From assembly GCA_027307165.1 (NCBI GenBank), contig DAHUXM010000027.1, positions 186,001 through 250,000 of the forward strand: a stretch of 64,000 nt of DNA, written 5' to 3'. How positions within the stretch are numbered: the first letter of the stretch is position 1; every line of letters starts with the position of its first letter. This DNA is from Gemmatimonadota bacterium (lineage in GTDB: Bacteria; Gemmatimonadota; Gemmatimonadetes; Gemmatimonadales; Gemmatimonadaceae). This document shows positions 32,672-42,542 of the stretch, piece after piece. A program made the position numbers and the translations under genes. The notes under the pieces are model-generated. The model saw nothing but the letters and a program-made list of their open reading frames with translations, ran no database searches and was not told the origin of the DNA.

Positions 32672-32675
<4 letters not shown>

Positions 32676-34300
32676 CGACGGCGACAATGGCCCGGACCGA
32701 CGCAGTACCGCATGCCGTTTCTCACGATTCGTTCGAGAAGATGGTCAGCGAGGCGAGGAGTCTCGAGCGGAACGGCAGATGGGCGGCGGCGCGCGCCTGC
32801 TACGAGAGTCTGCTGGATGATGACGCGCTCACTGCGGCGGCGCGCTCGTCGTTGTTACGCTGGATCGGACGCACGCATGCCGAGGAGGGGAATCCGGACA
32901 CGGCGTTTTCCGTGCTGGAGCGCGCAGTTGCGGCTGCGGAAGCGTCGGGTGAAGTGGGTGTGGAAGCACACGCGCTGAACGGGTTGGCTGTAGTCGAGCA
33001 GACGCTGGGCAATCTCGACCGTTCCGAGGAGTTGTACCTGCGCGCGCGAATCCGGGCCGCTGAAGCGCATGATGAGCTGCTGCTCGCGATACTGGATCAG
33101 AATCTCGCAACCGTCGCCAACATTCGTGGCAATCTGGAGCTCGCGCTGGAGTCGTACGGATCGAGCCGGAGGCGCTTCCATGCGCTGGGTCGCTCGTCGT
33201 ACGAAGCGCACGTGCTCAACAATGTCGGGATGGTGTTGACAGATCTTGGCCGGTGGGAAGACGCCGAAGCGGCCTATGGCTCCGCGTGCGAAGCTTGCGC
33301 AAGCAGCGACGACAGGGAGCTGCTGCGCAGGATCGAGGTGAACCAGGCCGAGCTCTGGATCGCACGCAACGATCTGCCCAAGGCGCGTGAACGTTGCGAG
33401 CGGCTCCTGAACGATGCGCAGCGCGAACACAACGTATCGGCACCGTGGCTCGGCGAGGTTTACAAACACTACGGCGTCGTGTGCAGGGAGCAGCGTCAGC
33501 TGGATCGTGCGGAGGGTTGGTTTGTGCAGGCGGCCAGGATCGCGGACAATTCGCATGACCTGCTGCTGGCCGCTGAAACGGCGCGCGAGCAGGCCGAGCT
33601 ATACTGGATTCAGGGGCGAAACAGTGACACGCTGCAGGCGCTGAACGCAGCACACGGCTGGTTTTCGCAGTTGCGCGCGGAGCGTGATCTCGATGCAATC
33701 GCGCGACGCAATGGACGCCTGGAAGAGCGGTTCCTCGAAGTGGTGCGGAAGTGGGGCGAATCGATCGAGAGCAAGGACTGTTACACACAGGGACACTGCG
33801 TACGTGTCGCAGACGTGGCGTGCATGCTCGCCGAGCGGATGGGCTTCGACCCGAAGACGTTGTTCTGGTTTCGCATTGGTGCCCTGCTGCACGACGTCGG
33901 CAAGTTGATTGTCCCACAGGAAGTGCTCAACAAGCCCGGCAAGCTCGATGACGACGAGTGGCGCATCATGAAGCGTCACCCCGAAGCCGGCGTGGAGCTG
34001 CTGGCCGACATCGAGTTTCCATGGGATGTGCGGCCGATGGTGCGCAACCATCATGAGCGTTGGGACGGTGCGGGGTATCCGGATGGGCTGGCCGGTGAAG
34101 CGATACCACTTTCAGCGCGCATTCTCTGCATTGCCGATGTGTACGATGCCCTGACGACGAATCGGTCGTACCGCAAGGGATTCGATCATGAGCGTGCCGT
34201 GGCCGTAATGACCGAGAACAATGCGAACGGCCACTTCGATCCAGCGATATTCGATCTCTTCCTCGAGTGGGCTGCGACGCACAATACACGGGTGGCATGA
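32672..34300 (+). CDS. TPR-HD-GYP protein, probable cyclic di-GMP phosphodiesterase
   Basis: The GTG at 32672 overlaps the upstream stop; an ATG at 32687 is an alternative. The 542-residue protein has TPR repeats over about residues 15-340 and an HD-GYP domain over about 350-540. Key residues are visible: H-D at 407-408 (LLHDVGKL), and [11 protein letters not shown] at 460-470 with the GYP signature. HD-GYP enzymes hydrolyse c-di-GMP to pGpG or GMP. No receiver or membrane segment is present, so TPR is probably the input or docking module. Within the operon it links c-di-GMP turnover to sigma-54 control. Confidence 0.93.
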
Positions 34301-35892
34301 CCATGTCGTTCATGTTTCAAGACAACGCTGGTGCGTCGTTGCGATCGGCCGTACTTGCCGTTCTGCTCATCGGCGTCGCTGCGTGCACGCCGGATGCGAA
34401 GGTCGCGAAGACGAGCGCTGCGGGAGGGACACTCGTTGTCGCCACCGCTGGTGACGCCGACAACCTGTTTCCGCCGCTCACAATGACGAGTCAGGGGCGC
34501 CAAGTGGTGGATCAGATATTCGATTATCTGGCCGACATCGGGCCCGACTTGAACACGATTGGCGATGGAGGCTTCACGCCCAGGCTCGCCGATTCATGGA
34601 GCTGGGCGCCCGACTCATCGTGGATAGCATTTCATATCGACCCCCGCGCACGGTGGCACGACGGGCAGCCCGTTCGCGCGGGCGACGTCCGATTCACGTT
34701 CAGATTGCTGACGGACTCGACGCTTGCGTCGCCGATCGCGGCGACGTTGCGCGGGATCGATTCCGTAAGCGTGCGCGATTCACTTACCGCGGTCGTGTGG
34801 TACGCGAGACGGACGCCGGAGCAGTTCTTCGATTTCGTGTACAATGTGGCGATACTGCCCGAGCATCTTCTGCACGAAGTTCCGGTAAAGTCGCTCGCGT
34901 CGTCACAGTTTGCGCGGCATCCGGTGGGCAGTGGCCGCTTCAGGTTTTCCAGATGGGACGGCGGATCGCGCATCGAGATCGTGAGCGACAGCAATAATTA
35001 TCGCGGACGCGCACGGCTCGATCGCGTTGTGTGGTTGGTGTCACCGGACATGCAGGCAGCGACGACGCGGTTGCTGGCGGGCGAGGCGGACTTCCTCGAG
35101 GTCGTGCGTGGTCCCGCAGTGGATCAGGTTGTCGCATCGCCCCGCGTGCGGCTGTTGACGTCGCCAAGTCTCGATTATGGTTTTCTGGCGTTCAACGTTC
35201 GGCGTGCGCCGTTCAACGACAGGGACGTACGACGTGCGTTGAGCATGGCCGTGGATCGGTCGGCGATGGCGCGAAACGTGTTCGACACGCTGGCGGTCCC
35301 GGGGCTCGGGCCTGTCACGCGCGCGCTGCCGGTCAGCAGGAGCGTTGTCGCACTTCCATACGATTCCGCGGCGGCGGTGAAGATACTTGCTGTGCACCGC
35401 CCGATCTCATTCAGGTTGCTCGTTCCCACGTCGAGCGCCGTGCGCGTCAAGTACGCGACGCTGCTTCAGGAGCAGTACCGTCGCTTCGGGGTGAAGGTGA
35501 CCATCGAGCCGCTCGAGGTCAACGCATTCGTTCAGCGACTCACGAGAGGCGACTTCGACGCTGTGCTCAATGCATGGCATTCCGACCCCAGTCCTGCGGC
35601 CGTCGTTCAGGCATGGGGGACGGCCGGTGCGCCGCCTGAAGGCGCCAATTTCGTCGGTTACACGAGTCGGAGCTTCGATGCGCTGGTGGATAGCGGAGCC
35701 CGCTCGTTCGATCCGGCGCGCGCGCGTGCCTACTATGCACGAGCCTATCGGGAGATCGATGCCGATGCTCCCGCGGTGTGGTTGTACGAGGCCCGGAACG
35801 CGAGTGGGGTGAGTCGCCGAGTGCACGTGGCGGGCAGCCGCGCGGACGCGTGGTGGTCCGATCTTCCGGACTGGACAGTCGACCAGCGTTGA
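34297..35892 (+). CDS. ABC transporter solute-binding lipoprotein, family 5 (oligopeptide/nickel type)
   Basis: The ATG at 34297 overlaps the TGA of the HD-GYP gene. The 531-residue protein has a lipobox (IGVAAC) and the SBP_bac_5 fold: GTLVVATAGDADNLFPPL, FTPRLADSWSWAPD, ARWHDGQPVRAGDV, and later VRRALSMAVDRSAM and FGVKVTIEPLEVNAF. These are the usual signatures of peptide-, opine- or nickel-binding proteins. No permease or ATPase genes are nearby, so it is an orphan binding protein. Its coupling to the regulatory genes suggests a sensing role, possibly of peptides, rather than or besides import. Confidence 0.92.
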   Translation: MTMSFMFQDNAGASLRSAVLAVLLIGVAACTPDAKVAKTSAAGGTLVVATAGDADNLFPPLTMTSQGRQVVDQIFDYLADIGPDLNTIGDGGFTPRLADSWSWAPDSSWIAFHIDPRARWHDGQPVRAGDVRFTFRLLTDSTLASPIAATLRGIDSVSVRDSLTAVVWYARRTPEQFFDFVYNVAILPEHLLHEVPVKSLASSQFARHPVGSGRFRFSRWDGGSRIEIVSDSNNYRGRARLDRVVWLVSPDMQAATTRLLAGEADFLEVVRGPAVDQVVASPRVRLLTSPSLDYGFLAFNVRRAPFNDRDVRRALSMAVDRSAMARNVFDTLAVPGLGPVTRALPVSRSVVALPYDSAAAVKILAVHRPISFRLLVPTSSAVRVKYATLLQEQYRRFGVKVTIEPLEVNAFVQRLTRGDFDAVLNAWHSDPSPAAVVQAWGTAGAPPEGANFVGYTSRSFDALVDSGARSFDPARARAYYARAYREIDADAPAVWLYEARNASGVSRRVHVAGSRADAWWSDLPDWTVDQR

Positions 35893-38039: not shown

Positions 38040-38696
38040 GTGACTTCGTCCGTACCTCCGGAATTCGAGCATCGGTACATCGCCGGCGAGGGAAACCTCG
38101 CCGGCCTCACCTTGTTGCTGCTGCACGGTACCGGGGGTGACGGCGATTCACTGCTTCAGCTGGGCTACACATTGGCGCCAGGGGCCACGCTTCTGAGTCC
38201 GACAGGGAATGTGCTGGAGAACGGTGCGCGGCGCTTCTTTCGACGATTGGCGGAAGGTGTGTTCGATCAGGCGGACCTGGCGTTGCGTACGCGGGAGCTG
38301 GGCGAGTTCATTCGCGACGCTGCACGTGCGTACAATCTCGATCGGCATCGGATCGTCGCTGTCGGATACTCCAATGGAGCGAACATCGCCAGCAGTCTCA
38401 TGCTGCGCCAGCCCGACGCACTCGCCGGCGCCGTGCTGCTCCGGCCGATGGTACCGTTCACGCCGGAGTCGCGCGTGCTGTTGAGCGGGGTTCCGATTCT
38501 GATCTGCGCCGGAGAGATGGATCCACTTCTGCCGTTCGGCGATACGGAACGTCTTGCGGACATCTTCCGATCGGCCGACGCGGATGTGACGGTGCACGTC
38601 GAGCACGCCGGTCACGAGCTTGCAATGGGCGACGTGATCGCAGCGCGCGACTGGATTGCGCAGAACTACAACACCGATGGTGCCCGATCGTCCTAG
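38040..38696 (+). CDS. Alpha/beta hydrolase, phospholipase/carboxylesterase type
   Basis: The start is a GTG at 38040 with GAGG a few bases upstream; upstream ATGs in the same frame lie inside the M1 gene. The product has 218 residues, the usual size of small cytoplasmic carboxylesterases. Motifs: LLLLHGTGGDGDSLLQL near the N-terminus (oxyanion hole), S111 in GYSNGAN, Asp in CAGEMDPLLPF and His in HAGHELAMGD. The natural ester or lipid substrate is unknown. The gene follows M1 by 10 bp, and its stop shares CTAG with the stop of the convergent regulator gene. Confidence 0.9.
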   Translation: MTSSVPPEFEHRYIAGEGNLAGLTLLLLHGTGGDGDSLLQLGYTLAPGATLLSPTGNVLENGARRFFRRLAEGVFDQADLALRTRELGEFIRDAARAYNLDRHRIVAVGYSNGANIASSLMLRQPDALAGAVLLRPMVPFTPESRVLLSGVPILICAGEMDPLLPFGDTERLADIFRSADADVTVHVEHAGHELAMGDVIAARDWIAQNYNTDGARSS

Positions 38697-39469
38697 GGCT
38701 CGTACCGCGTCGTAAGAGTGTCCACGATGCATTCCACGAAGCGCTCGATCGGCAGTGGCTCGCGGATCGCTGCGACCGCGAGTCCGCTGACAGCGATGCA
38801 CTGTCGCCGCAATGCACGCTCCGAGCTCAGCCCAACCGCTCTGGCGACGTCGAGCAGCGTGAGACTCCTGTCGGTGAGTAGGTCGTAATTCCTGAGTAGC
38901 GTGAGCGCAGCGACGAAGCCTGACGGAGACGCAATTCCTGCGTTCCTGAACTGACGCGACAGAGCCCAGCGCGTGACGCCGCAGACGCGGGCGAGCCGTT
39001 CGACCGAGTCGATTCTGTGCCCATCCTCGCTCACGTGATCGATGCAACTGTACAGCGCCGATGGTACCATCTTCAGTCGTTGCGACAGAGCGGTCGTGAG
39101 CAGGTGAGCGCGTGTGGCACGTGACTGCCGTCGCAGAATGTCGGCGAACGTCGTCGGATCGTCGTTGTATCCATAAGTGACGATCTCGCCGATGCCGAGC
39201 TCGCGAATGAGGTCGATCGATGCCTGCGCGTACTCTGGCGTGAGCAATATGTAGAGCACGGTGCCCAGGTGCGCGCGAGACAGCGAGCCGGGAATACCGC
39301 GATCGCGCTCTGCGAGCATCGGGTCCACGACAGCCACGTCGGACGATCCACGCGTCACGGCATCGATGAAGTCAGCTGTACCCGATCGTATCGTCACCGA
39401 TCCCGGAGGCATCACTGCTGCGCGAGCGCGGTCGTGAAACGGTCTCCGGAGCATTGCCAGCGCTCTCAT
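38693..39469 (-). CDS. AraC-type HTH regulator with degenerate receiver-like N-terminus
   Basis: The 258-residue form starts at the ATG at 39469. Residues about 1-115 have the alternating strand/helix pattern of a response-regulator-like domain (AVMPPGSVTIRSG, SDVAVVDPMLAERD, LYILLTPEYAQASIDLI) but lack the acidic cluster and clear phospho-site. The C-terminal 120 residues contain two HTH units, SVERLARVCGVTRWALSRQF and TLLDVARAVGLSSERALRRQ, as in AraC/XylS proteins. It is the last gene of a three-gene minus-strand unit (regulator, TPR protein, regulator). Its stop codon overlaps that of the convergent hydrolase gene. Confidence 0.8.
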   Translation of the reverse strand: MRALAMLRRPFHDRARAAVMPPGSVTIRSGTADFIDAVTRGSSDVAVVDPMLAERDRGIPGSLSRAHLGTVLYILLTPEYAQASIDLIRELGIGEIVTYGYNDDPTTFADILRRQSRATRAHLLTTALSQRLKMVPSALYSCIDHVSEDGHRIDSVERLARVCGVTRWALSRQFRNAGIASPSGFVAALTLLRNYDLLTDRSLTLLDVARAVGLSSERALRRQCIAVSGLAVAAIREPLPIERFVECIVDTLTTRYEP

Positions 39470-39518
39470 CTCATTCCGTGCGCCTTTTGCGTCAAGAATA
39501 TCCTTCCTCGCGTGTCCC

Positions 39519-40892
39519 CTACTGTGCACCGCTCATGGCAGTGCTCATGGCACCGCCCATGGCACCGCCCATGGCACTGCTCGTACCGACGCCGTGTCGG
39601 GCTGCCATGAAATCGAGCGATTCGGCAACCTCGCGAATCTCAACCGGCACGCTGTCCAAGTCAATGGAGATTGCGGACGGATTGGGCATCACGTCGTCAC
39701 TGACGGCGACGGTGTTCGAACGGAAGCGCTCCGGGCGCTGTGGTATCTCGCTGGGAGCGTTCTCGATTGCCCGCAGGATGTCACTCAGCTCGGTCTCTGC
39801 CTCGAACACAAGCTGGAAGTGCTCGTACCGGTTTGCGAGCTCGATGGCCCTTTGCGCAGCCGACCTGGCCTCGTCGAGTCGCGCGAATCGCCGGCATCCC
39901 TGTGCGGTGAACAGCGCGAATTGCGCCTGCTGGCGAGGCGTCAGCCGCTCGCCGGCGAGCTCGGCGCCGAGTGCGTCGAAGGCGGCGGCGTTTTCGTGAT
40001 GTGCAGCGAGAAAGAACAGATTGAGCGTCGCATGACGTCTGACGTGTCTCTCCGGCGCAGCTTTCTGTACGACGCGAAGCGCGGCGGATGCGACGGCGGG
40101 AAGTCCGTAGTCGCTGAGGAACGATGCGAGATCGACGAGCGTCTGGTACTTGAGCTCGTCGTCGTCCTCGAGCGTGTCGAGGATGCCGAACGCGAGCGAG
40201 ATCGCCTGCTCGTATTCACCGCTCATGTTCGCGACCCCCGCGAGCGCGAGCGTGACTCTGGGAACGACGGATGGACACGATCGTCGCGCCTGCCTGGCAA
40301 TACCCGTGAGACGCAGTCGCGCCCCCTGCAGATTGCCGCGGCTCCAGAGCAGGTTCGCCTCGCCGATCTGCGCGCGGAACGCGATGGACAGGTCGCCCGC
40401 CTCCCTGCCAAGCTGGGATGCACGGTGGTAGGCTATCTGCGCCATCTCCCAGTCGGCGCACATACGGTACGCGCGTCCCATCATCAGACGCGACTCCGCC
40501 GCGAGCCACGTTTCACCGTCAAGCTCGGTATCCATGCCCGCGAGTGCGAATACCTTTGCGGCCATCGCCCATTCGCCCTCGCTACCAAGCGCCTGTCCGT
40601 ACATGAGAAGTGAAGTGTAAGTCGCCTTTCTTCCCACGCGGACCGGTCCCGCGCTCTCCCAGAATTGAAGTGCGCAGGCCATCGCTTCGAGCGCTGCGCG
40701 CACGTTCGGTGCAGCGTCGATGGCTGCGACATCGGATTCGATCCCGTGGAGGGTATCGCGGTGGAATCCACTCAGGCCGTTCGTCTTGACGCTATCGTAG
40801 ATCTGCAGGATGGCGAATCCTGCGGCAGTGCGCGCGAATTCCGCATCCGATCGTGCTGCTGCGAGATGCTCGAGGAAGGATGTGTCGGTCAT
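39519..40892 (-). CDS. TPR-like helical protein between two AraC-type regulators
   Basis: This 457-residue, soluble, all-helical protein contains TPR-like repeats from about residue 60 to 380 (for example ESRLMMGRAYRMCADWEMAQ, LALAGVANMSGEYEQAISLA, FTAQGCRRFARLDEARSAAQ). The C-terminus is a Met/Gly/Ala tail, AMGGAMGGAMSTAMSGAQ, encoded by a 12-bp tandem repeat. The start overlaps the stop of the upstream regulator gene by 4 bp. TPR proteins of this shape serve as peptide or protein receptors in some bacterial signalling systems; here that is inferred only from context. Confidence 0.85.
   Translation of the reverse strand: MTDTSFLEHLAAARSDAEFARTAAGFAILQIYDSVKTNGLSGFHRDTLHGIESDVAAIDAAPNVRAALEAMACALQFWESAGPVRVGRKATYTSLLMYGQALGSEGEWAMAAKVFALAGMDTELDGETWLAAESRLMMGRAYRMCADWEMAQIAYHRASQLGREAGDLSIAFRAQIGEANLLWSRGNLQGARLRLTGIARQARRSCPSVVPRVTLALAGVANMSGEYEQAISLAFGILDTLEDDDELKYQTLVDLASFLSDYGLPAVASAALRVVQKAAPERHVRRHATLNLFFLAAHHENAAAFDALGAELAGERLTPRQQAQFALFTAQGCRRFARLDEARSAAQRAIELANRYEHFQLVFEAETELSDILRAIENAPSEIPQRPERFRSNTVAVSDDVMPNPSAISIDLDSVPVEIREVAESLDFMAARHGVGTSSAMGGAMGGAMSTAMSGAQ
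39534..39581. repeat. 12-bp tandem repeat, four units
   Basis: Four consecutive 12-bp units, two of them identical (CATGGCACCGCC) and two with changed ends (CATGGCAGTGCT and CATGGCACTGCT). The array codes for the Met-Ala-Gly/Ser tail of the TPR protein and could change copy number without a frameshift. Confidence 0.85.
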
Positions 40893-41794
40893 GGTTTGGT
40901 TGTCGGTTCGCCGGACGCCTTGAGGCGTACGTGTCGGGGGCGAGGTCTGCCCTGGATGAGTGTCAGCGACGGCTTGGCGTCTTCCGGCGGATTGCGTGGA
41001 GCGCTGGACCTCCGACGTGTCTTGCGTTCTGTGAGGCGCACTGCGAGTATATCCGCCGCCTCGGCGACTCTGAGCGGTCGAGTGCGAAGTCTGCCGGTCG
41101 TGGTATCGAGCAGGAGTGTGAACTGTGCGTCCATCGTTCGATGCGACTTGTATCCAAGCAGCGACGCGATGGTCGTGAACGGAATGCGAGATCTGGTGAT
41201 GGCCCTGTATGCCGACGTGAGGTGCGTCGCTTCGACCATTCTTCTCGTCGATACGAAGCCAGCATCGGCGATATAACGATCCATGGTGCGCCGCGGCAGC
41301 GAGACTGCTGCCGACAGCCCGTCGGGAGAATCGGGTCCATCGCCGGTGCGGAACATTGCGACCAGTCTCTCACGGATCGCAGCCGGGAGGAGATTGAGGT
41401 TGGCATCCAGTCTCGACAGCAGCGCGGCGCAGAACTCTGCGTCAGGCGTGAGAAGGACGGCGCGCTCCAGCAACGACCGCTCGTTCGCAGTACCTCGGAA
41501 GACGAACCGCGCGGGAGTCCGTTGCGCCAGGATCACGGAGCTTTCGAGTGCAGCGGTGCTCACTGAGCTGAAGGCGACGACGGGCCGCGGAAATTGCGCG
41601 ATGCTTGCTGCTATCGACTGCGCGATGCCCGGAGTGAGGAGTGCCGGATCCAGTACGAGGCAGTCGTCACTCGGAAGCGCCAGCGCGGCGAGGAGCTGGC
41701 GCGTGTCCGGAATGGACTCGATGATACCGTGTCCAGCGACGGCTGCGTACACGTAGCCCATCCCCTGTGGTGCCAGAAATACGATGTATCTCAA
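40889..41794 (-). CDS. AraC-type HTH regulator with degenerate receiver-like N-terminus and basic tail
   Basis: TTG at 41794 is the first available start, since an in-frame TGA lies just upstream; it overlaps the stop of a 12-codon minigene. The 301-residue product has a receiver-like N-terminal half (about 1-115: RYIVFLAPQGMGY, DDCLVLDPALL, PRPVVAFSSVS, ARFVFRG) without an obvious phosphorylation pocket. An HTH region (about 155-245) follows, including SLPRRTMDRYIADAGFVSTR and FTTIASLLGYKSHRTMDAQF. The last 50 residues are strongly basic. It is first in a unit with the TPR protein and a second regulator of the same layout. Confidence 0.78.
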   Translation of the reverse strand: MRYIVFLAPQGMGYVYAAVAGHGIIESIPDTRQLLAALALPSDDCLVLDPALLTPGIAQSIAASIAQFPRPVVAFSSVSTAALESSVILAQRTPARFVFRGTANERSLLERAVLLTPDAEFCAALLSRLDANLNLLPAAIRERLVAMFRTGDGPDSPDGLSAAVSLPRRTMDRYIADAGFVSTRRMVEATHLTSAYRAITRSRIPFTTIASLLGYKSHRTMDAQFTLLLDTTTGRLRTRPLRVAEAADILAVRLTERKTRRRSSAPRNPPEDAKPSLTLIQGRPRPRHVRLKASGEPTTKP

Positions 41795-41829
41795 TTCGGC
41801 CCCGTTGATGCAACTGCTGTCCGCGACAT
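41791..41829 (-). CDS. Possible 12-codon leader minigene coupled to the AraC-type regulator
   Basis: ATG at 41829, six bases after GGAAGG, starts a 12-codon frame (MSRTAVASTGPN) whose TGA overlaps the TTG start of the regulator (TTGA). The regulator start has only a weak GGGG upstream, so ribosomes ending the minigene could reinitiate there. This is a mechanism seen for translational coupling; no experiment supports it here. Confidence 0.4.
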   Translation of the reverse strand: MSRTAVASTGPN

Positions 41830-41891
41830 GGCATTCCTTCCCGAGCGACGAGAACCTTCAATAAGGTAGCGTCCGCCAGGTGCCGGGGAAA

Positions 41892-41937
41892 TGCGATTTC
41901 CGGCCAACCACTGCGATTTCCGGCCAACCCGGAAATC
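41892..41937. promoter_or_regulatory. AraC-style direct repeats plus inverted arm upstream of the regulator gene
   Basis: TGCGATTTCCGGCCAAC occurs at 41892-41908 and 41912-41928, a 20-bp period. A reverse copy of the core, CCGGAAATC, follows at 41929-41937, forming GATTTCCGG-CCAAC-CCGGAAATC. AraC-type proteins contact two 17-bp direct repeats about one-and-a-half to two helical turns apart (21 bp for araI), so this fits an operator. It lies about 98 bp upstream of the TTG start. Confidence 0.65.
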
Positions 41938-41958
41938 GGGGCAGGTTGGTCCGGATTT

Positions 41959-42002
41959 GATCCGATGCCGGCGGCATTTTGAGGACCGGCCGGCGTCGGA
42001 TC
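41959..42002. terminator. Long stem-loop after the small lipopeptide gene
   Basis: GATCCGATGCCGGC and GCCGGCGTCGGATC pair over 14 bp with one G-T wobble and a 16-nt loop. It lies 16 bp beyond the lipopeptide stop on the minus strand. No T-run is present. Confidence 0.45.
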
Positions 42003-42017
42003 AGGGCACTGTTTCCC

Positions 42018-42206
42018 CTATGGGAGTGCGACCTTGACGATGGTGGCAGCCTGGGAGGTGCTGTCGGTGCCGCAGTGGTCCCAGCCTTGGGTTCCGCCGC
42101 CGCTGCACACGGCGTTGGAGCGGGGGGCTGTCGGTTCTGCGCAAGCGACAGCGAGCGCTGCTAGGACGGCACCAAGGATGGCGATGTATCTGGTGGTACT
42201 GCGCAC
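42018..42206 (-). CDS. Tiny exported lipopeptide (62 aa)
   Basis: GTG at 42206 has GGAG five bases upstream. The 62-residue product has an almost complete lipoprotein signal peptide (MRSTTRYIAILGAVLAALAVAC), leaving a mature peptide of about 40 residues: a Pro/Thr-rich start, then NAVCSGGGTQGWDHCGTDST with two further cysteines, and a hydrophobic end (IVKVALP). No enzyme domain fits in this length. The upstream DNA carries the same 20-bp direct repeats found upstream of the AraC-type regulator, in opposite orientation. It may be a signal or surface peptide of that regulatory cluster; this is inference. Confidence 0.65.
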   Translation of the reverse strand: MRSTTRYIAILGAVLAALAVACAEPTAPRSNAVCSGGGTQGWDHCGTDSTSQAATIVKVALP

Positions 42207-42542
42207 ATTATCTCCGGCAAGGGGGTTGAGCAGGGAGATTACAGGGAGTTTTCCCAGTGCGAAATGCGCATTTGCGCCATTTACCTGCGCTTTTGTGCGG
42301 GTCGCCAGAATTGGCCGGAAATCGCAGTCCGTGGCCGGAATGCGCACTTGTCCGATCGCTGTCGGCAAGCAAATGTATGAGGTATGGCTGCGCTATGCGG
42401 AATCAACCGGGTCACGGCATGTGGCGTCGCTCGAACAATGAACTCAGCCAAGCGCCTTACAAAATGGGCGGCGTCACATGCCAATCCCCGCCTTCCGGGC
42501 CGGATCCCCACCACTTTCCATCAGCATCGCACACGATAAGTC
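42207..42542. other. Control region upstream of the lipopeptide gene, no other gene
   Basis: About 335 bp up to the next possible ORF on the plus strand. Besides the direct repeats at 42311-42346 it has a 12-bp palindrome AAATGCGCATTT (42262-42273) and a minus-strand TGTAAT (42238-42243) that could be a -10 box about 30 bp before the GTG. I see no further gene. Confidence 0.5.
42311..42346 (-). promoter_or_regulatory. AraC-style direct repeats upstream of the lipopeptide gene
   Basis: On the minus strand TGCGCATTCCGGCCAC and TGCGATTTCCGGCCAA occur with a 20-bp period. The second is identical over 16 bases to the repeats at 41892-41928. They lie about 105-140 bp upstream of the GTG, similar to the spacing at the regulator gene. 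This suggests one regulator acting at both sites. Confidence 0.65.

Follow-up and report, generated by a model that had tools for sequence, protein, structure and literature searches.

Does a bacterium with two membranes use a tetratricopeptide repeat (TPR) protein to read a short exported peptide? The question is raised by four neighbouring genes in a 64,000-nucleotide stretch of Gemmatimonadota contig DAHUXM010000027.1, here called the window, whose positions serve as coordinates unless another locus is named. The original prediction for this DNA described two AraC-type regulators, a TPR protein and a 62-codon lipopeptide gene, and tentatively combined them into a peptide-sensing circuit. 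Each of these parts lies where it had been placed, all on the minus strand. Gemmatimonadota are common soil bacteria, many of them known from metagenomes only, and no description of peptide communication in this phylum was found in the open-licence literature. The evidence below favours a peptide-signalling module that resembles Rap-Phr systems and is built from other parts, in a diderm (Gram-negative) phylum. We give this reading a probability of roughly two in three. The parts, their co-conservation, the repeats, the coding constraint and the tandem peptide units are read directly from the sequences; the working of the module is a matter of prediction.

The lipopeptide gene (42206-42018) begins with GTG. 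Its product has a signal sequence, consisting of a basic N-terminus, a hydrophobic stretch and a lipobox (LAVAC), followed by a 41-residue mature part, CAEPTAPRSNAVCSGGGTQGWDHCGTDSTSQAATIVKVALP in translation. Regulator 1 (41794-40889, TTG start) joins a receiver-like domain to an AraC-type helix-turn-helix, and its gene shares 4 bp with that of the 457-residue TPR protein (40892-39519). Regulator 2 (39529-38693), also a receiver-like (beta-alpha)5 domain followed by an AraC-type helix-turn-helix, is the counterpart of a regulator found throughout the phylum. Its reading frame opens within the TPR gene, and an ATG at 39469 is the likelier start. These three genes overlap one another in an operon-like arrangement. 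A 12-bp tandem repeat (MGGAMGGAM) at the end of the TPR gene, positions 39519-39590, overlaps the start region of regulator 2.

Is this arrangement peculiar to the window? A profile search with the TPR protein finds relatives in at least 108 of 346 Gemmatimonadota genomes; scoring was limited to the top five candidates in each, and the true count may be higher. Loci around these relatives were searched with the TPR-protein and regulator profiles, and 92 TPR-regulator loci were compared; these loci are kin by descent, and counts made on them are not counts of independent events. The general layout in the phylum is a TPR gene, a gap of 200-450 bp and then the regulator on the same strand. An automatic scan detects an open reading frame with a lipobox in this gap, on the opposite strand and divergent from the regulator, in 83 of the 92 loci, and the background for such frames is about 0.10 per kb. 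Five of the nine scan-negative loci belong to the window's genus, where the lipopeptide gene lies upstream of regulator 1 instead. The other four seemed to lack the gene, until reading by eye found it in three of them, two with tandem copies of ETQGSNN. The lipopeptide gene is therefore present in 91 of the 92 loci. In the remaining one (L178:5930-6240) a stop codon directly behind the lipobox cysteine truncates it, and TPR gene, regulator and repeats are intact, possibly the mark of a signal-negative strain or of a sequencing error. Lipoproteins were called by lipobox pattern or by eye rather than by a trained predictor. Candidates for orphan peptide genes in other genera (L071, L081, L082, L083 and L085) were rejected as weak matches inside other reading frames.

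The original prediction had staked its circuit on conservation of the lipopeptide gene and repeats near homologous clusters. Since the TPR gene, an AraC-type regulator, the tiny lipopeptide gene and tandem repeats occur together across the phylum, this part of the proposal holds, as do those of its other sequence-level expectations that could be checked. The two-regulator layout does not extend so far. All four genomes of the window's genus have the order lipopeptide, regulator 1, TPR protein, regulator 2, with lipopeptide orthologues in the same position at four other loci of the genus and a second, divergent copy of the module in one genome. Loci outside the genus generally have one regulator, and their lipopeptide gene runs divergently between the TPR gene and the regulator. 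In the tree, both regulators of the window fall into one clade together with several orphan copies, so the second regulator arose by a genus-specific duplication; regulator 1 is the copy specific to the genus.

What kind of product does the small gene encode? Precursors measure 36-71 residues in nearly all loci other than the window, with one of 95. The coding sequence is under purifying selection, with 0.023 nonsynonymous changes per site (dN) against 0.21 synonymous changes (dS) between the window gene and a 95% identical orthologue in the nearest species. No named NCBIfam family covers the lipopeptide or the TPR protein. An n-region, a hydrophobic stretch and a lipobox, identified by pattern or eye in 91 loci, would imply export through Sec with processing by signal peptidase II. 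In alignments the lipobox cysteine is followed mostly by T[AG]P and then by a short tail. The residue directly after the lipidated cysteine is never aspartate, and in E. coli a residue other than aspartate at this position would favour the outer membrane. The lipobox, the lack of aspartate and a tether of the CxxPTAP kind are ordinary for small lipoproteins. The lipopeptide could be a structural output, a small outer-membrane or periplasmic lipoprotein resembling entericidins or pilotins; the TPR protein and the regulator would then adjust its level to some other cue. Repeats before the lipopeptide gene would fit such simple regulation.

The extreme C-terminus of the precursor argues otherwise. 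In ten loci it consists of two to six tandem copies of a unit of about seven residues. These are (HTLGSGN)x6 in L193, (HGPDAGS)x4 in L198, (HNPDSGN)x3 in L195, (ETQGSNN)x3 in L165, (ETQGSNN)x2 in L169, (HTPDSGS)x2 in L197, HNPNVG-HNPNIG in L196, two copies of NWQGSGT in L174, two of SGHQGSGT in L162, and about four units of the APTLPW[VA] type in L201. The copies within L193, L195, L197, L165 and L169 differ at several codons, always synonymously, and those in L198 at one synonymous codon; the units of L196 and L201 also carry substitutions. Relatives of L165 carry one copy each (ENQGSNN, ETQGSNN or EGQGSNN). Units that are repeated and then kept through synonymous codons are expected of a precursor that exists to supply the unit, and multi-copy pheromone precursors are of this kind. 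Identical heptapeptide copies across synonymous codons in several lineages are hard to explain in a structural protein of about 20 mature residues, and no other observation argues as strongly as the tandem units against a purely structural role. Also unexpected for such a protein are the parallel modules with distinct peptides found in single genomes (genomes of genus g18 have three to five TPR matches) and the adjacency to a TPR gene in nearly every locus. We regard the structural explanation as rather unlikely. Parallel modules with distinct peptides would instead fit private signalling channels.

Repeated C-terminal units on small precursors also resemble the multi-core precursors of antimicrobial or otherwise modified secreted peptides. 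On this account the TPR protein and regulator would be regulators of the peptide or part of its immunity, and the TPR protein does match a TPR model associated with ribosomally synthesized and post-translationally modified peptides, weakly and far below the cut-off. A Sec or lipoprotein signal is unusual for such precursors, however, and the survey of neighbouring genes in these loci found no modifying enzyme, protease or exporter conserved beside the module. An antimicrobial role is very improbable.

Cysteines supply a second pattern in the mature peptides. Among 91 of them, 25 have one cysteine, 66 have three and none has two, as fits a lipidated cysteine with an optional disulfide pair formed outside the cytoplasm. 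In the window the pair bounds a loop, CSGGGTQGWDHC (42072..42107, minus strand), which is the best-conserved stretch of the mature peptide in alignments of the genus and is a candidate for the signal. Paired cysteines, never an odd second one, would suit redox sensing as well. The lipopeptide might then be an envelope sensor or retained modulator that responds to lipoprotein export, redox state or envelope stress, with the TPR protein sensing it indirectly and no peptide diffusing. Envelope genes linked to the regulatory motif described below (a type II secretion operon and a TonB-dependent receptor) are in keeping with this idea. Against it, the 25 peptides with a single cysteine have no pair, no membrane protein is conserved in the module that could relay a periplasmic signal to a cytoplasmic TPR protein, and the tandem units are left unexplained. 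We consider a sensor of this kind quite unlikely.

How might a peptide signal feed back on its own genes? Direct repeats with a 20-bp period, which had been proposed upstream of both the regulator unit and the lipopeptide gene, are present by sequence match. The pair upstream of regulator 1 (41892..41927, minus strand) consists of two exact copies of TTGGCCGGAAATCGCA, at 41912 and 41892. The pair upstream of the lipopeptide gene (42311..42346) has an exact copy of TTGGCCGGAAATCGCA at 42311 and, 20 bp on, a partner with three mismatches, GTGGCCGGAATGCGCA, at 42331; it lies on the plus strand, opposite to the lipopeptide gene. The first pair is kept in L055, L058, L059 and L062 and the second in L055, L058 and L062, and both promoters retain their boxes in the sister species. 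Pattern searches covering all 3.7 Mb of the genome, with two mismatches allowed in the 16-mer, match the window sites and one second locus only; the reversed control has no matches. The two-box motif with up to three mismatches has exactly four matches, with none to the reversed pattern. Two of the four are the window promoters and two lie on another contig. The latter, in the variant form GGGATTCGCA, stand in front of two divergent units, an orphan regulator gene closely related to that of regulator 1 and a type II secretion operon comprising gspE, gspG, gspF and pseudopilin-like genes (L008:3536-9552, which is genome contig C3:43535-49551).

Elsewhere in the phylum the spacing is 21 bp. A period of 21 bp across the whole gap between TPR gene and regulator was discarded as a pure promoter signal. 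It is partly caused by the 7-codon peptide repeats, so the test was repeated on the promoter part alone, from lipopeptide start to regulator start. A near-perfect direct repeat with 21-bp spacing occurs in 29 of the 83 divergent promoters, where shuffled sequences predict 0.1, and other spacings are at or near background. Direct repeats spaced near 21 bp are typical of AraC-type proteins. All 28 loci of one sister family carry TTTTGSGRCA-N11-TTTTGSGRCA (up to three mismatches) on the regulator strand, close to where the regulator gene begins; the rest of each locus is nearly free of it. Direct repeats before the TPR gene are confined, in the loci compared, to scattered weak cases. Further sites in ten genomes of the sister family lie near genes for a GspH-like pseudopilin, a TonB-dependent receptor (two genera) and a CheY-like protein (two genera); some of these matches contain mismatches and two genomes have one control match each, and these genes are candidate regulatory targets only. 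The sites beside the TonB-dependent receptor gene are represented by L247 and L248 (motif at 1501), from two genera.

The protein that would bind these sites combines familiar domains in an altered form. Regulator 2 and its relatives score above the Pfam cut-off for HTH_18, and regulator 1 falls below it. TPR_12 likewise passes its cut-off in relatives of the TPR protein and falls short of it in the window protein. Profiles, structure models and conservation support the AraC-type and TPR assignments of these sub-cut-off proteins. The regulator profile matches AdpA and other AraC-type structures. A model of regulator 2, with a predicted local distance difference test (pLDDT) score of 91.3, shows a (beta-alpha)5 receiver-like domain and an AraC-type DNA-binding domain. 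An Asp-Pro pair at the phosphorylation position, at the end of strand 3, is invariant. The receiver-like (beta-alpha)5 domain with this aspartate is shared with FixJ-like response regulators and the AraC-type double helix-turn-helix with AraC-family regulators. The module differs from these proteins in three ways. Its receiver has neither the acidic pair after strand 1 nor the canonical lysine and its usual region, so it does not look like a phosphorylatable receiver; no partner kinase gene was noted beside it; and its sites are direct repeats spaced 20-21 bp apart. A single-domain CheY-like protein is encoded directly 3' of the regulator in about 40 loci and recalls Spo0F, the single-domain partner of Rap proteins. 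The active site of this CheY-like receiver is seemingly complete at L144:6811-7239 and about 40 other loci. Distances between TPR proteins are strongly correlated with those between regulators (r 0.85, uncorrected for shared ancestry).

Could the TPR protein be the receptor? The AlphaFold2 model of the window protein (pLDDT 90.4, predicted template modelling score 0.88) is an all-helical, continuous TPR superhelix without a DNA-binding domain. Its best solved relatives in Foldseek are LGN, MalT domain III and Rap receptors, several of them solved together with a pheromone; among the Rap-type matches are Rap phi3T, Rap pLS20, RapH-Spo0F and a Rap-CSF complex. Its sequence profile reaches mostly designed and eukaryotic TPR proteins, and the 60 top-scoring sequence matches listed include no RRNPP chain. 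This fold suits peptide binding, as far as a model can indicate, without proving it, and we treat the window protein as a predicted peptide receptor. Most relatives are about 410-450 residues long and those of the deepest lineages about 600. The latter (L193, L196, L197 and L198) have an extra N-terminal region of about 190 residues that has no Pfam match and looks GAF-like by eye. A plasmid search with the TPR protein gave no matches, and the named matches of a genome scan by alignment are all metagenome assemblies.

At nine loci in two genera, a gene for an SBP_bac_5 oligopeptide-binding protein lies directly upstream of the TPR gene on the same strand. Four of five genomes checked have 3-5 such genes and the fifth has 22; in one genome that has five, two of the five immediately precede the genome's two TPR genes. 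The window's genome has three SBP_bac_5 genes only, one of which encodes a lipoprotein 5 kb from the module (34267..35892, plus strand), a possible import component. This linkage is not universal and is what a peptide-import step would look like. Together, the tandem units and the linked oligopeptide-binding protein favour peptide signalling, judging from gene content and coding sequence.

In the module as we picture it, the small gene would produce a Sec-exported, lipid-anchored precursor, a step predicted from its signal sequence. The signal would be the C-terminal part, either a loop bounded by cysteines or a short linear unit that some precursors repeat in tandem. Once released, this peptide would return to the cytoplasm, probably by way of a periplasmic oligopeptide-binding protein, and bind the TPR superhelix, thereby altering the action of the TPR protein on the receiver-like/AraC-type regulator. 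The regulator may then bind the direct repeats spaced 20-21 bp apart before the lipopeptide gene and its own gene, and conserved motifs mark these putative feedback sites. We infer that the peptide is released, imported and bound by the TPR protein, that TPR protein and regulator touch, that the regulator binds DNA, and that the type II secretion operon is among the outputs.

Several points weigh against this scheme. The Rap match is moderate in Foldseek (E 9e-5 to 1.6e-3, template modelling scores 0.38-0.55) and is equalled by MalT, LGN and eukaryotic TPR proteins, so it shows the fold and not the function. Export is read from the lipobox pattern. A lipid-anchored precursor needs to be cut before a peptide can travel, and no dedicated protease is conserved beside it. 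The oligopeptide-binding protein is linked in three genera only. The mature peptide of the window has a genus-specific tail and no tandem repeats, which leaves its active part uncertain. Peptide and TPR distances are correlated (Mantel r 0.59, p 0.001), a figure uncorrected for shared ancestry.

How does the proposed signalling module compare with known systems? Rap-Phr systems of Bacillus, its phages and plasmids pair a TPR protein that lacks a DNA-binding domain with a short precursor, exported by Sec, whose C-terminal end becomes the peptide; the module has a like pair, with Sec export and a C-terminal signal predicted. The targets of Rap proteins are receiver-domain proteins (Spo0F for RapH) or DNA-binding regulators (ComA), and the module has a receiver-like/AraC-type regulator. 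Many parallel pairs per genome are a further likeness, and import in Rap-Phr is by an oligopeptide permease. Unlike Rap-Phr, the module has a diderm host, a lipobox precursor that often bears a cysteine pair and is usually divergent rather than downstream, and a dedicated receiver-like/AraC-type regulator, and the only sequence relation seen is that of the TPRs. PlcR-PapR, NprR-NprX, Rgg-SHP and ComR-ComS combine a cytoplasmic TPR peptide receptor with autoregulation of the precursor, as proposed for the module, but PlcR, NprR, Rgg and ComR have a DNA-binding domain fused to the TPR receptor whereas the module uses a separate AraC-type protein. The enterococcal sex pheromones cCF10 and cAD1 come from lipoprotein precursors and are read by a TPR receptor (PrgX). 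They are cut from the lipoprotein signal sequence; in the module, by contrast, repetition and conservation are seen at the C-terminal end of the mature lipopeptide.

A five-point signature for RRNPP systems comprises a precursor of 10-100 amino acids, Sec secretion of the signal peptidase I type, a receptor of 250-500 amino acids, TPRs in the receptor and neighbouring genes (PMC10075063). Both window genes fall within these size ranges, and the receptor carries TPRs by the TPR_12 matches of its relatives and the superhelix model. Precursor and receptor genes are adjacent in most loci outside the window's genus; in the window, regulator 1 lies between them. Most loci essentially fit the signature, but their signal sequences are of the lipoprotein type, and Sec secretion is predicted from these. 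We would say that the module works like Rap-Phr without filing it as a proven RRNPP member, the likeness lying in the TPR fold and in a presumed binding of peptide.

Searches for peptide signals that TPR receptors read inside the cell have covered Firmicutes together with the phages and plasmids of that group (PMC10075063). In the open-licence literature the scheme is described so far only in Gram-positive bacteria, and no paper was found there on such a system in Gemmatimonadota or another Gram-negative group. A broader proposal, to which we lean only slightly, is that these modules constitute phylum-wide diderm pheromones, with single- or multi-copy lipid-anchored precursors, cytoplasmic TPR receptors, a separate regulator and several private channels per genome, either invented independently of the Gram-positive RRNPP systems or very distantly related to them. 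If the signalling reading is true, the loci provide a ready set of predicted signal peptides. A new problem would follow as well, namely by what route a peptide set free from a lipid-anchored precursor gets across two membranes and back.

Two other features of the surroundings may be recorded. In about 20 loci of the sister family, a gene for a pseudopilin of the GspH kind is divergent to the TPR gene. In the window, directly 5' of the oligopeptide-binding protein gene, lies a gene (32672-34300) whose product has a weak match to the TPR profile (45.8 bits) and, by eye, combines TPRs with an HD-GYP-like C-terminus.

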